DNA from: Oscillospiraceae bacterium | GTDB lineage: Bacteria > Bacillota > Clostridia > Oscillospirales > Acutalibacteraceae | Length of the DNA stretch: 64,000 bases | Direction: 5' to 3' | NCBI GenBank assembly: GCA_015065425.1 | Contig: SVQH01000004.1 | Coordinates: 52,767 to 116,766 of the forward strand | Shown here: positions 14,060 to 21,152 of the stretch, piece after piece | How positions within the stretch are numbered: position 1 is the stretch's first letter | How the letters are laid out: every line of letters begins with the position of its first letter | Position numbers and translations under genes: made by a program | The notes under the pieces: generated by a model | Database searches by the model: none | Told to the model about the DNA's origin: nothing | What the model saw: the letters and a program-made list of their open reading frames with translations, nothing else

Positions 14060-14236
14060 ATGGATTTTGAAATCACCACAAACGAAGTTTCAACTGATGA
14101 TCTTACCCTTCAGCCCAACAAGGCAGAAAATGCAATAGCTTTCCTTGATTTTTGGTCTCAGTGGTTTGCTGCTATTATTGAAATCATTAAAAATTTCTTT
14201 AATACAATAATGGAAGCTTTCGGTTCAGCAGAATAA
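14060..14236 (+). CDS. Small amphipathic peptide 1 (58 aa)
   Basis: This 58-residue protein is too short for most gene finders. ATG follows GAAAGGAG (14041-14048). The N-terminal half is polar and acidic (MDFEITTNEVSTDD); the C-terminal half is an aromatic amphipathic helix containing FWSQWFAAIIEIIKNFF and ending GSAE. There is no signal peptide, double-glycine leader or recognised domain. It is transcribed together with peptide 2, 46 bp downstream, from the TTGAAA/TATTAT promoter. The helix resembles peptides 2 and 3 and the last ~20 residues of the secreted proteins at 19623-21152 and 21251-26008. Function is unknown; membrane association or protein-protein docking are possibilities. Confidence 0.75.
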   Translation: MDFEITTNEVSTDDLTLQPNKAENAIAFLDFWSQWFAAIIEIIKNFFNTIMEAFGSAE

Positions 14237-14282: not shown

Positions 14283-14399
14283 ATGAACGATACAGTAGCA
14301 GCTATTCAGGAGTTTACAGAATTCATCGTTAATTTCATCAAGATGATCATGGATTTCTTCAAGAGCCTCGGCGGCGGTGCTGAAGAAGATGCAGAATAA
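14283..14399 (+). CDS. Small amphipathic peptide 2 (38 aa)
   Basis: A 38-residue peptide with a GAGGTG ribosome site before the ATG. Nearly all of it is one amphipathic helix (FTEFIVNFIKMIMDFFKSL), followed by a GGG turn and an acidic tail AEEDAE. Lys and Asp/Glu fall on one face, Ile/Phe/Met on the other. It is the second gene of the peptide 1 operon, ended by hairpins at 14418-14482. The helix-glycine-acidic tail plan is shared with peptide 3. No known family is recognised. It is presumably a membrane-surface peptide or a docking partner; this is inference. Confidence 0.75.
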   Translation: MNDTVAAIQEFTEFIVNFIKMIMDFFKSLGGGAEEDAE

Positions 14400-14665: not shown

Positions 14666-14809
14666 ATGACATGGGATAACGATTACGCTTACATCCAGGT
14701 ATTCATCGATTTCCTTAAGCAGATTATTGAAATAATCAAGAGTCTCTTCGGCGGACTTGGTGGTTCAAGCGATGACGGTGCTGCTGATGACGAAGCTGCT
14801 GCTGAATAA
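14666..14809 (+). CDS. Small amphipathic peptide 3 (47 aa)
   Basis: A 47-residue peptide with AGAGGTG nine bases before the ATG, its own promoter (14589-14617) and terminator (14837-14877). Residues ~8-28 form an amphipathic helix (YIQVFIDFLKQIIEIIKSLF), then GGLGGSS and a 17-residue Asp/Glu/Ala tail (SDDGAADDEAAAE). The same plan as peptide 2, with a longer tail, shows that they are paralogues. It lies 127 bp upstream of the ECF sigma gene on the same strand, making it a possible member or target of that regulon, although its promoter looks housekeeping-like. Function is unknown. Confidence 0.78.
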   Translation: MTWDNDYAYIQVFIDFLKQIIEIIKSLFGGLGGSSDDGAADDEAAAE

Positions 14810-14877: not shown

Positions 14878-14936
14878 ACATAATAAATCATAATATTTTC
14901 TCTTTTTTTGCGTCTTTATAAGTGAGGAGGGATCGT

Positions 14937-15494
14937 ATGGATGATAATATTATAATTGAAATGTTTTTTAACCGCGACGAAAAGGCAATAGCTGAAACTC
15001 AAAAAAAATTCGGGGAGTATATACATAGTATTGCTTTTAACATAGCGGGAACTGCAGAGGATGCTTGCGAATGTGAAAATGACACATATCTGAAGCTCTG
15101 GAATTCCATACCTCCCGAAAAGCCCGTAAATTTCAAGGCGTATCTCGGAAGGATAGTCAGAAACAGTGCCCTGAGCCTTTACAGAAAAAACAACGCGGTA
15201 AAAAGAGACAGCGGTGTTTATGTACTTCTTTCCGAACTGGAGGAATGTCTTCCGTCAAAGACCACAACCGAGGATGAAGCAGATGCAAACTATGTTTCGC
15301 CTCTCATTTCATCATGGCTTCGCACTTTAAGTCAGGACGACCGTGTGCTTTTTGTACGCAGATACTGGTACGGCGACAAGGTAAAGGACATTTCCGACAT
15401 AACGGGCATACCTTCAAAAAAGATATCCTCAAAGCTTTTTGCACTGAGAAAACAGCTTAAAGATGAATTATCTCAGAAAGGAGTAAATGTATGA
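14937..15494 (+). CDS. ECF-type sigma-70 family RNA polymerase sigma factor
   Basis: A 185-residue extracytoplasmic-function sigma factor. Region 2 spans about residues 10-75 (DTYLKLWNSIPP, FKAYLGRIVRNSALSLYRK binds the -10). Region 4 covers about 125-175 (LSQDDRVLFVRRYWYGDKVKDISDITGIPSKKISSKL, the helix-turn-helix for the -35). Regions 1.1 and 3 are missing, as usual for ECF factors. The start is the ATG six bases after GAGGAGG (14924-14930). The stop overlaps the next gene as ATGA, so sigma factor and its membrane partner are made in stoichiometry, the normal arrangement for a sigma/anti-sigma pair. Confidence 0.94.
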   Translation: MDDNIIIEMFFNRDEKAIAETQKKFGEYIHSIAFNIAGTAEDACECENDTYLKLWNSIPPEKPVNFKAYLGRIVRNSALSLYRKNNAVKRDSGVYVLLSELEECLPSKTTTEDEADANYVSPLISSWLRTLSQDDRVLFVRRYWYGDKVKDISDITGIPSKKISSKLFALRKQLKDELSQKGVNV

Positions 15495-17182
15495 AAAGTG
15501 AAGATATTTTCAACTCTGTAACAAAAATTGACGACGACATAATTGAAGAAGCAGCAAATTTTTCTTTTACAAAAAGAAAAAATAAGCTTATACCCGTTAT
15601 AATATCTGCGGCGGCAGTGTTTGCGGTGATAATTGCACTGGGAGCTCTTGCTGTAAATACGGACTTTATAAAGCTTTTCTCTCCCGCACCGCAGACGGAA
15701 ACCACCGCAGGAGAAGAAGGAACCACAGCGGGAGAAAATGAATTTACGACAAGCGAAGCCTCGGTTTCTTCTGTTGACCCTTCAACAGAAGAAGCCACGG
15801 GAGAAAACAGCGAAAATACGGAATCTTCCTCTCCTTCCGAGGAAATTACCACGGAAAGACCTGACGAAAACACCGAGCCTCCTTATATCAATCCCCATAT
15901 TCCCGAGCATAAAACAGAAATAAAGCCCATGTCTCTTGTAAAAGCGGATTATCCCGAAATGGCAAAATATCCCTCATCGGGATTCTTTCTCGGCGGAATG
16001 TGGAACGATAAGGCTTATGAGGCATGGCAGGACGACATAAGAAAAATGAATTCAAAAGAAGTCAACACCTCTGCACTGAATACTTTTACAAAGGCACTTC
16101 TTCCCGAGCTTCTCACCGGGCAGAATGACAGAAATAAGGCAGTTTCTCCCCTTAATCTGTATATGGCACTGGCTATTGTTGCCGAGACATGCGACGGAAA
16201 TTCGAGAAAACAGATTTTATCCCTTCTCGGTGAAAACTCCATAGAAAGCCTCAGAGAAAATGCCTCGGCACTGTGGCAGAAAAACTACCGTGATGACGGC
16301 AGCATGAAAAGTATTCTTGCATCTTCCTTATGGCTTAATAACACGGTTGAATTCAAAAAGAACACCATAAACAGTATTGCAGAAAATTATTTTGCATCCG
16401 TATATTACGGCACTACGGGCAGTGAAAGCTTCAACAGAATGATGAATTCATGGATAAAGGAACAGACCGACGGACTTTTTGAGCCTGACCTTGAGCTCGA
16501 TGCCGAAACAGTTGCTGCCATTGTTTCCACCCTTCTTTTCAATACCAAATGGAATGACGAATTTTCAGAGGAATACACAACGAAGGACACATTCCATTCC
16601 CCTTCGGGTGATAAAACCGTGTCCTTTATGAATGCCTCCCGTTATATGACATATTACTGGGGTGAAAACTTCTGTGCAATAAAATTAGGACTTGACATCG
16701 GCGGCAAAATGTGGTTCATTCTCCCCGATGAGGGCGTTGATGCAGACAGGATTTTCTCAGACAAAGAGGTACTGGAGCTTATAACCCTTGACAACATAAC
16801 GGTTGATGTAAACTATAAAAACTCAAAATATCTGAAAGTTAATATGTCAATTCCGAAATTTGACATAGCAAGTGAAAATGATGTGACAGATAACCTGAAA
16901 AAGCTCGGCATAACGGATGTAATGAATTCAAAGACAGCAGACTTCTCTCCCCTTGCAAAAAATCCCGAAGGAATATGTTTAGACAAAATAATCCACGGAG
17001 TCAGAGTAAAAATTGACGAAGAAGGCGTAGCCGCAGCGGCATACACGGCTATGATGTTAAACGGCTCAAGTGCACCTCCGGACGATGAAGTTGATTTCGT
17101 TCTCTCAAGACCCTTCGCCTTCGTAATAACCATGACAGAGTCCGCACCGCTGTTTGCAGGAGTTGTAAACACAATACAATAA
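15491..17182 (+). CDS. Membrane-anchored anti-sigma-like protein with extracellular serpin domain
   Basis: A 563-residue single-pass protein. Residues 1-30 form a short acidic cytoplasmic segment (SEDIFNSVTKIDDDIIEEA) of the kind that precedes the membrane helix in clostridial ECF-coupled anti-sigma proteins. Residues ~33-56 are transmembrane. A Thr/Ser/Glu-rich linker reaches ~130. From ~175 to the end is a serpin: VSPLNLYMALAIVAET, NSWIKEQTDGLF, STLLFNTKWNDEF, then the reactive-centre hinge EEGVAAAAYTA (E510 onward) and SRPFAFVI...PLFAGVVN. The Ala-rich hinge is of the inhibitory type. Aligned with alpha-1-antitrypsin the P1-P1' pair would be Ser-Ser, near APP. Bacterial serpins are known from gut Clostridia (e.g. 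siropins of [Eubacterium] siraeum). Fusion to an anti-sigma-like segment suggests protease sensing; that role is inferred. Confidence 0.88.
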   Translation: MKSEDIFNSVTKIDDDIIEEAANFSFTKRKNKLIPVIISAAAVFAVIIALGALAVNTDFIKLFSPAPQTETTAGEEGTTAGENEFTTSEASVSSVDPSTEEATGENSENTESSSPSEEITTERPDENTEPPYINPHIPEHKTEIKPMSLVKADYPEMAKYPSSGFFLGGMWNDKAYEAWQDDIRKMNSKEVNTSALNTFTKALLPELLTGQNDRNKAVSPLNLYMALAIVAETCDGNSRKQILSLLGENSIESLRENASALWQKNYRDDGSMKSILASSLWLNNTVEFKKNTINSIAENYFASVYYGTTGSESFNRMMNSWIKEQTDGLFEPDLELDAETVAAIVSTLLFNTKWNDEFSEEYTTKDTFHSPSGDKTVSFMNASRYMTYYWGENFCAIKLGLDIGGKMWFILPDEGVDADRIFSDKEVLELITLDNITVDVNYKNSKYLKVNMSIPKFDIASENDVTDNLKKLGITDVMNSKTADFSPLAKNPEGICLDKIIHGVRVKIDEEGVAAAAYTAMMLNGSSAPPDDEVDFVLSRPFAFVITMTESAPLFAGVVNTIQ

Positions 17183-19622: not shown

Positions 19623-21152
19623 TTATGCTTTGACAAAAAGGTTTCTGAAGAAATTCTTTATTGTATCGATAAATGAACGGAGCATTTTTACAAAGTTTGT
19701 GAAATTGGGCTGATTTTTGAAAATTTCCGTTGCTGTGAGATTTTCCACCTTGTCAAATCGCATATCGGGGATATTGTTCTGCATGAACTGGGGATATTCT
19801 TCGTAGGTGTCCACATAAAACTGTTCTTCGCTTGTGAGAATCAGCTCATAGAACCGGTCGTGTCCCTCGTGTGTTGTGCAGTGGAGCATATCCTTGATAA
19901 ACCATGTCTGCTCGGGAAGTGCCGTAGCGGATGCATCAATGCAGAAATCGGGAGAAATGTGATTATGGCCGTCATTTACAGCCTGTGTATATCCCTCGGG
20001 AAGAGTGCTTCTTATGTCTGCTGTCACAGCACCTACGGATGCATATTTTGTATCAACAGTACCGTCAGATGTGTTCTTATGGGCAGTTACAAGAGGAGTT
20101 CTCTGAATGTCATAGCCTGCAACTATGTAAATCTTTACATCCTTGTTGGCTTCGTTCAGAATTTCTTCTGCATTAACCTGTACATTATAATGATACGCAT
20201 CAAGCTTTTCTATAAGACCTGCCTGAGTTTCCTCATTTACCATGACGGTCTTTGCTTCTTCATAATATTCATGGGGGACAAAGCTCCATATACCGGGAAG
20301 AGTACCGAAAATGGGAATGAGTGCTTCATCGTAAACTCTGTCAAGAAGATTTTCAACAATTACATCAGCCATGGATAAAAGGAGTGACCACACACCTACA
20401 TCGTCAAGTGCTGTTGCAAGACCGTATAAAAAGCCCTGTAAGAAGTCCTGTTCAAGTGAGGGAATGGCATCGAGAGCATAGTTGAGAAGAGCATCCTTGT
20501 TTATCTCAAATCTACGGCAGAAAAGCTCACCTGCAACGGCTGTACCCTGAATGGGGCAGTTCTGGAAAATTACGGTTTCAATGTCTTCCGTACCGTAGCG
20601 TTCAAGATATGCCATTGTTACAACTCCGCCCATGCTGGAGGCTTTGAGCTGTACCTTGTCGTGACCCGTAAGCTCTTTTATAGTCTGAATATCCTTATAA
20701 AGTCTGTCGGCATGAGTGTAGGGGTCAAGTCTGAAATCATAGCCGAAATAATATGAATATTCAATACCGTGATTGGCATCGGTGGGATATTCCTCGGGAG
20801 CATATACATTTTCCTTTGAATTTCCGTCACCGTCAAGTGCAAGTGCACCGAAAGCGGAATTTACAAAACCAATGAGAGCATCACCGAATTTGTCAAAATT
20901 TCCTGCCACAAGTGCGGGTATTACGGGAAGGATAACGGACACCGCCTCAGTTACAAGGGGCATTGTCTCGGGGCGGAAAAGAGCCTTCTCATTTTCTGCA
21001 CCGGGATTTTCATAAACAGTAGCACTGCCGAGAGCCGCAACATAAATTACAGGATTAAATCCGCAGTCACATTTTTCTTCGGCAGCAAAAGCAGGCACAA
21101 AAAGTGTTGCCGTTAATATAATTGATAATATAATTGATAATGTTTTTTTCAT
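19623..21152 (-). CDS. Secreted alpha/beta hydrolase with C-terminal amphipathic helix
   Basis: A 509-residue secreted protein. The signal peptide is residues 1-23 (cleavage after VPAFA). The alpha/beta-hydrolase reading: PVIYVAALGS strand, YYFGYDFRLDP, ADRLYKDIQTIKELTGHDKV, then the nucleophile elbow ASSMGG (Ser173 in place of the usual GxSxG), as in lipase/PGAP1-like enzymes. A block NDGHNHISPDFCIDA near residue 395 probably holds the catalytic His and is shared with the paralogue at 62225-63997 (DPSHNHISPD). The last ~20 residues (MLRSFIDTIKNFFRNLFVKA) are an aromatic amphipathic helix like those of the small peptides at 14060-14809. It lies downstream of the giant repeat protein, separated by a hairpin. 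Substrate unknown; lipid or ester is likely. Confidence 0.85.
   Translation of the reverse strand: MKKTLSIILSIILTATLFVPAFAAEEKCDCGFNPVIYVAALGSATVYENPGAENEKALFRPETMPLVTEAVSVILPVIPALVAGNFDKFGDALIGFVNSAFGALALDGDGNSKENVYAPEEYPTDANHGIEYSYYFGYDFRLDPYTHADRLYKDIQTIKELTGHDKVQLKASSMGGVVTMAYLERYGTEDIETVIFQNCPIQGTAVAGELFCRRFEINKDALLNYALDAIPSLEQDFLQGFLYGLATALDDVGVWSLLLSMADVIVENLLDRVYDEALIPIFGTLPGIWSFVPHEYYEEAKTVMVNEETQAGLIEKLDAYHYNVQVNAEEILNEANKDVKIYIVAGYDIQRTPLVTAHKNTSDGTVDTKYASVGAVTADIRSTLPEGYTQAVNDGHNHISPDFCIDASATALPEQTWFIKDMLHCTTHEGHDRFYELILTSEEQFYVDTYEEYPQFMQNNIPDMRFDKVENLTATEIFKNQPNFTNFVKMLRSFIDTIKNFFRNLFVKA

Follow-up and report, generated by a model that had tools for sequence, protein, structure and literature searches.

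The window analysed here, a stretch of 64,000 nucleotides from an Oscillospiraceae bacterium, carries two overlapping genes on the forward strand. The first (14937..15494, +; 185 aa) encodes an ECF sigma factor having Sigma-70 regions 2 and 4 only; an alternative GTG start lies at 14922 (+), the ATG being at 14937. The protein matched Sigma70_r2 with an E-value of 5.1e-10, above the cut-off of that Pfam model, and TIGR02937 (NCBIfam) with 67.3 bits against a cut-off of 42.9; its match to Sigma70_r4_2 (E 1e-5, 25.5 bits) was slightly below the Pfam cut-off of 25.7. The start of the second gene overlaps the sigma gene stop as ATGA at 15491-15494 (+).

The second gene (15491..17182, +; 563 codons) is proposed, from Pfam and hydropathy, to encode a membrane anti-sigma/serpin fusion. 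Residues 1-35 (15491..15595, +) form an inner segment which, on a profile of related segments, is the proposed sigma-binding part, and residues 36-54 (15596..15652, +; mean hydropathy 2.76) form a membrane helix. They are followed by a Ser/Thr/Glu-rich linker and pre-serpin stretch (residues 55-194; 15653..16072, +), delimited by alignment of relatives, and by the serpin domain (residues 195-560; 16073..17170, +). The latter is a complete member of the serpin superfamily, matching PF00079 with an E-value of 9.4e-60 and 203 bits (cut-off 27) over profile positions 2-368 of 370; its solved-structure relatives by sequence include conserpin and tengpin. Pfam and hydropathy thus bore out both the gene overlap and the order of parts (inner segment, one helix, Ser/Thr/Glu-rich linker, full serpin) that an earlier sequence-only reading of the window had described. 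The layout is that of a membrane anti-sigma factor, adjoining the sigma gene and joining an inner segment through a helix to an outside domain. No anti-sigma model in Pfam or NCBIfam matched the N-terminus, and these searches gave no family name for the segment. The outside Pfam domain is a serpin and not the lysozyme-binding domain, which places the protein outside the RsiV family.

Directly upstream of the sigma gene are three tandem small ORFs (14060-14236, 14283-14399 and 14666-14809, +) encoding peptides of 58, 38 and 47 aa which, read by eye, are amphipathic and lack a signal sequence. Of the relatives, L032 has three similar small ORFs at the same position and L067 has two. The gene at 19623-21152 (-), and genes in L047 and L045, encode large, apparently secreted proteins with a short amphipathic C-terminal tail of the type FFxNLF, resembling these small peptides. 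In L032 a gene for a secreted protein with dockerin-like repeats, assigned by eye (L032:7699-8511, +), stands between the serpin and acetyltransferase genes and is absent from the corresponding place in the window.

The window's own genome holds 18 ECF matches above cut-off in 2.79 Mb, and a genome search found one serpin, the window fusion. A whole-protein search of named genomes gave two relatives, L032 (52% identity; a Clostridia MAG from water deer caecum) and L033 (34%; uncultured Clostridia), and in both the ECF gene ends in the identical overlap and the N-terminus is of like kind. Serpins were found in 131 of 398 genomes of the window's taxonomic family and in 75 of 398 drawn from the phylum. 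Loci were taken around the family matches and part of the phylum matches listed, and 218 serpin frames were sorted with an ECF profile. The family serpins are the best-scoring part of the matches listed, so that the shares below are not population rates; the phylum set comprised 30 loci taken automatically and 40 chosen regions in which long frames were preferred. The 218 frames include one cut copy (L003 and L071, both without ECF). A serpin was called fused when its protein started between -23 and +7 nt relative to the ECF stop. L104 was counted as having no ECF despite an N-terminus of type A (see below); it lies at a contig edge and has stop codons inside its serpin.

Among the matches listed, 44 of the 218 frames in family and phylum were fused to a membrane N-terminus at the ECF stop. 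A further 25 belonged to a three-gene form (ECF gene, membrane protein, serpin), two had an ECF gene nearby and no such middle gene, and 147 showed no ECF gene over the stretch available, which in 40 cases extended fewer than 1500 bases upstream. In the family set alone, again for the matches listed, the fused and three-gene counts were 40 and 22 of 150. From the ECF density of the window's own genome, approximately 0.05 of 150 serpins would be expected to start in a 100-nt stretch at an ECF stop on the same strand. Because 40 of the 150 listed were fused, the pairing of ECF and serpin genes exceeds chance, although these serpins come in part from related species and are not independent, and the 150 also take in L033, which has no family assignment. 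The earlier reading had suggested that genomes be searched for membrane-helix serpins adjoining ECF genes; the single example it noticed is part of a wide group in which fusions of more than one kind, and also the three-gene form, occur. All eight partner ECFs checked against the TIGR02937 cut-off passed it (five of the fused types B-F, three of three-gene loci).

The 25 three-gene rows among the matches listed stand behind 23 ECF genes; the serpin lies no more than 65 nt from the middle gene in 16 of the rows and at 120-1330 nt in eight, and the remaining row is the second serpin of L071, downstream of a fused protein. The order of ECF gene, membrane protein and secreted serpin was seen behind 22 ECF genes outside the fused loci listed (L181, L137, L220, L234 and others), and most ECFs of the three-gene loci group in an 18-member clade, separate from those of the fused types. 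In L111 (3381-7302, +) two complete type-A ECF-serpin fusion pairs stand in tandem.

The reactive loop of the window serpin (P17-P4', residues 510-530; 17018..17080, + by alignment) contains the hinge EEGVAAAAYT at residues 510-519. A hinge was scored as inhibitory when P17 was Glu, P15 Gly, P14 small (Val, Ala or Cys allowed) and P12-P10 small. The window hinge has all four features, as have 41/44 fused, 24/25 three-gene and 113/147 unlinked serpins among the matches listed. P17 Glu, P15 Gly and small P12-P10 were each kept in 44 of the 44 fused serpins listed, and the inhibitory-type hinge of the earlier reading is supported by this comparison. P14 in the same set was Val or Cys and not Thr in 35/44 and Leu in 3/44. 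Across 30 relatives the hinge was the best conserved of eight segments (3.46 bits per column), the serpin body having 2.50 and residues 1-26 having 2.09. Within the inner segment V10, D14 and I18 are among the conserved positions. By alignment P1 was Ser, Gly or Ala in 36/44 of the fused serpins listed and in the window is probably Ser526. Such residues would suit elastase- or subtilisin-like proteases, an assignment tied to the alignment and to the reference stretch used in it.

The linker varied in length among the 30 relatives (43-140 residues, median 68), and residues 149-194, just before the serpin, were better conserved than the linker at 1.75 bits per column. In tengpin, an N-terminal stretch holds the serpin in its active state. 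By analogy, residues 149-194 are a candidate relay and may carry the fold change to the membrane.

Each of the three closest ECF siblings in the window's own genome (39-44% identity; C24:43884-44420, C20:22685-23242 and C22:30585-31136) precedes a gene for a membrane protein with a like N-terminus and a different outside part. The outside parts of these three proteins gave no significant Pfam match; the proteins may serve to sense signals of another kind. A profile of 26 columns was built from the inner segments of 29 fused-type serpins, non-serpin genes being left out, and run on 2456 ORFs. At E <10 it gave 42 domain matches, of which 32 lines were fused-type serpins and 10 were non-serpin. 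The 32 lines represent 31 genes, all directly preceded by an ECF gene except L104 at its contig edge. The 10 lines represent four genes, all directly following ECF genes: the three sibling partners, which appear in several loci, and one in L234, where ECF gene, membrane protein and secreted serpin stand in succession. Their E-values were 2e-8, 0.001, 0.057 and 0.083, and the remaining 17 profile lines, with E-values between 10 and 480, were short inner stretches. When the first 55 residues of the window protein were searched against its own genome, three ECF-linked paralogues were returned (E 5e-4, 0.15 and 0.20). A match in C39 (E 0.25) was taken as chance, being weak and having no ECF gene in its 3.1-kb locus.

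A conserved inner segment among the homologues, on which the sequence-only reading had made its proposal depend, was therefore present, and it is common to the non-serpin partners of sibling ECFs. The companion expectation, that the serpin gene would not occur in relatives without the sigma gene, failed in the letter: sigma-less serpins do occur, even in the window's genus (L069). Those examined in the window's serpin clade, however, had in place of the full segment an N-terminus resembling that of a secreted protein or a lipoprotein, or else a short tail or a worn-down segment, and its lipoprotein-like and secreted members, L069 among them, had neither ECF gene nor segment. The worn-down case is L232, which has an opposite-strand gene upstream, no ECF gene and most of the segment gone; its relatives L230, L101 and L159 have both ECF gene and segment. 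That these sigma-less serpins lack the full segment supports the reading of it as a module, and the reading that it goes with the ECF type and not with the serpin type is supported by comparison.

The fused serpins have six kinds of N-terminus, designated A to F, which fall with the ECF clades. Trees were quick ones (LG+G4, no bootstrap), so that gain and loss are indistinguishable in them; L093, L175, L163 and L176 were left out of the serpin tree, and L103, whose ECF is cut short, was left out of the ECF tree and of the distance comparison. In the ECF tree types B, C and F each form one clade, and a 33-member clade takes in the 29 type-A ECFs, the three siblings from the window's own genome and the ECF of L234. 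In the serpin tree fusions occupy four parts: one is a wide type-A clade, and the other three are types B, C and D. Types E (L109) and F have their serpins within this type-A clade and were not counted as separate lineages; type C formed one group with weak support (71) in one serpin tree and two groups in another. The L109 serpin has a mean identity of 44% to type-A serpins and an N-terminus of another kind, and its ECF has 23% identity to type-A ECFs, against 42% among the latter. By these sequence identities L109 is a natural swap, in which a serpin of like kind is paired with another ECF and carries another segment. Over the 29 type-A pairs the ECF and serpin distances were correlated (r 0.56; 0 of 2000 permutations as high), a correlation to which shared ancestry alone contributes.

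Upstream sequences were searched for two-block motifs with the ribosome-binding site trimmed away. L103 and types B, C, D and F were left out of the fused set, and L071, L031, L005 and L087 out of the three-gene set. For the 29 sigma genes of the fused set (L109 and 28 of type A) the motif was GCAACC or similar and CGGTA/CGTCT, with a spacing of mostly 15-16 nt (score 355 versus 256, sd 5.5, in shuffles). Nineteen three-gene loci gave another, ATAAGG and CGTAT at mostly 16-17 nt (223 versus 180, sd 6.1). The shuffles preserved two-letter blocks and not relatedness, and the score gaps therefore overstate significance. In the window, GCGTC at 14910..14914 (+), placed as in relatives, is a possible -10 of an ECF-type operon promoter; the -35 match is poor and the motif score the lowest of the 29. 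Self-activation is common for ECF factors, and the ECF-like motifs upstream of these operons would fit it.

Taken together, the coupling of sigma factor and serpin and the anti-sigma role of the fused protein are well supported by sequence comparison. From them we infer that the segment would bind the sigma factor, that a protease would be the trigger, that trapping would lead to release, and that a regulon would respond. It is probable, in our judgement, that the two genes encode a cognate ECF sigma factor and membrane anti-sigma factor with an inhibitory-type serpin as the sensor, and the comparison of relatives supports the earlier proposal of such a pair with the serpin as its outside domain.

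The alternative that survives best, unlikely as we hold it to be, is that the serpin is an output: sigma and anti-sigma factor would answer another envelope signal, and the serpin would be a tethered, self-regulated surface shield. In 24 of the 25 three-gene rows listed a separate membrane protein stands between the ECF gene and the secreted serpin, an arrangement that fits an output as well as a sensor; the ECF-like motifs before the operons agree with it, and the partners of the sibling ECFs show that such an anti-sigma protein works without a serpin. Against it, the inhibitor is the sensor in RsiV, in the parts of the published account that are cited below. Moreover, serpins from four parts of the tree are joined to six kinds of N-terminus, which would be surprising if sensing did not involve the outside domain.

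It is distinctly improbable that the signal read by the serpin fold is not a protease at all but, say, a ligand or heat. Some animal serpins do not inhibit and serve as hormone carriers, and the P14 residues of the fused serpins listed (Val or Cys in most, Leu in three) are in keeping with such a role; the constancy of P17, P15 and P12-P10 in all 44 listed, and the standing of the hinge as the best conserved segment, argue against it. Rather less probable still is a sacrificial substrate, in which a protease clips the loop or linker without being trapped and the cut itself starts release. The variable, Ser/Thr/Glu-rich linker would be easy to cut, but such a device needs no full serpin with an intact hinge. 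Chance neighbourhood or an assembly artefact is scarcely credible: two thirds of the frames listed do lack an ECF gene in the stretch seen, some for want of upstream sequence, but the excess of fused family serpins listed over expectation and the origin of L032 and L033 in other assemblies speak against it, and the 28-54% identity of relatives to the window protein argues against copies of one recent event.

With the serpin taken as the sensor, the following mechanism is proposed. At rest the short inner segment would hold the sigma factor at the membrane. An outside serine protease would attack the loop and be trapped, leaving the serpin irreversibly loop-inserted, and this change would open the linker, or the boundary with the membrane, to cleavage by a site-1 protease. 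The remainder would next be removed by a site-2 protease within the membrane and by proteases of the cytoplasm, freeing the sigma factor, which would drive its own operon and so replace the spent serpin. The fused protein would combine the roles of alarm and shield, just as RsiV does against lysozyme. An M50 site-2 protease is present in the window's own genome, which says little since it was also present in 14/14 control genomes; the site-1 protease PrsW was sought in the same genome and not found. A possible signal-peptidase site behind the helix was weighed and set aside, since the Ala-Leu-Ala of the window is absent from L032 and L067 in the alignment read by eye. For the group as a whole we put at about even chances the wider claim of a class of one-shot protease alarms, in which the serpin trap is spent and its fold change frees the ECF factor, and which arose repeatedly in these bacteria, on differing ECF/anti-sigma scaffolds, beside the looser three-gene form.

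The irreversible fold change of serpins is known from animals as a way of destroying proteases. Were the proposal true, bacteria would use it as a signal transducer, giving a direct readout of protease pressure, whether elastase-like, pancreatic or microbial. It would help to explain how common serpins are in this family (the 131 of 398 genomes above) and would offer a ready-made sensor from protease to transcription. The earlier reading knew of no described sigma/anti-sigma pair with a serpin sensor, and in the open-access literature searched, mostly at the level of title and abstract, no paper on such a pair was found.

Inhibitory serpins secreted by gut bacteria are themselves familiar. In the set sorted here, the window's family has many ordinary serpins of the secreted type. 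In the cited sections of PMC5127057, the siropins of Eubacterium siraeum trap elastase-like proteases. The same sections mention neither operon nor transmembrane segment and, differing in this from the window protein, the siropins are not reported there as membrane- or sigma-linked. A survey of the superfamily (PMC8233489) records that some prokaryotic serpins are membrane anchored, and the word sigma does not occur in its text. For the inner segment the likeness is to CnrY, a class II anti-sigma factor of Cupriavidus metallidurans, in which, in the portion cited, a short inner segment suffices, its two helices binding region 4 and region 2 of the sigma factor (PMC7406223). The two are likened by description, and the division of window residues 3-22 into two such helices is a guess by eye. 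To place the outside domain, two further systems are compared.

To our knowledge, SigI is not an ECF factor of the kind met here. The SigI/RsgI pairs of cellulosome-forming Clostridia resemble the present group in that a single type of anti-sigma protein carries interchangeable sensors outside the cell (PMC3413522), and differ in that the sensors listed in the cited part of that paper bind or act on carbohydrates. Closest is SigV/RsiV. According to the cited sections of PMC5014341, SigV is held by RsiV, which binds lysozyme as its inhibitor and is afterwards cleaved by signal peptidase and RasP; a similar SigV/RsiV path is described for Clostridioides difficile in those of PMC9044953. With the pairs of Bacillus subtilis and C. 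difficile, as given in these sections (PMC5014341, PMC9044953), the window shares, as proposed here, a single-helix membrane anti-sigma factor adjoining the ECF gene and an outside domain that inhibits the attacking enzyme and is its receptor. The difference is that a serpin stands in place of the lysozyme-binding domain and that trapping by a serpin would be irreversible. Of the ECFs here, those of type B reached 80 bits against the SigV model, whose cut-off is 190. Membrane anti-sigma factors that sense through an enzyme inhibitor are known, and what would be new is a sensor that traps irreversibly and its recurrent coupling to ECF factors. If true, the present case together with RsiV would suggest a rule, that inhibitors of attacking enzymes are good raw material for anti-sigma sensors.
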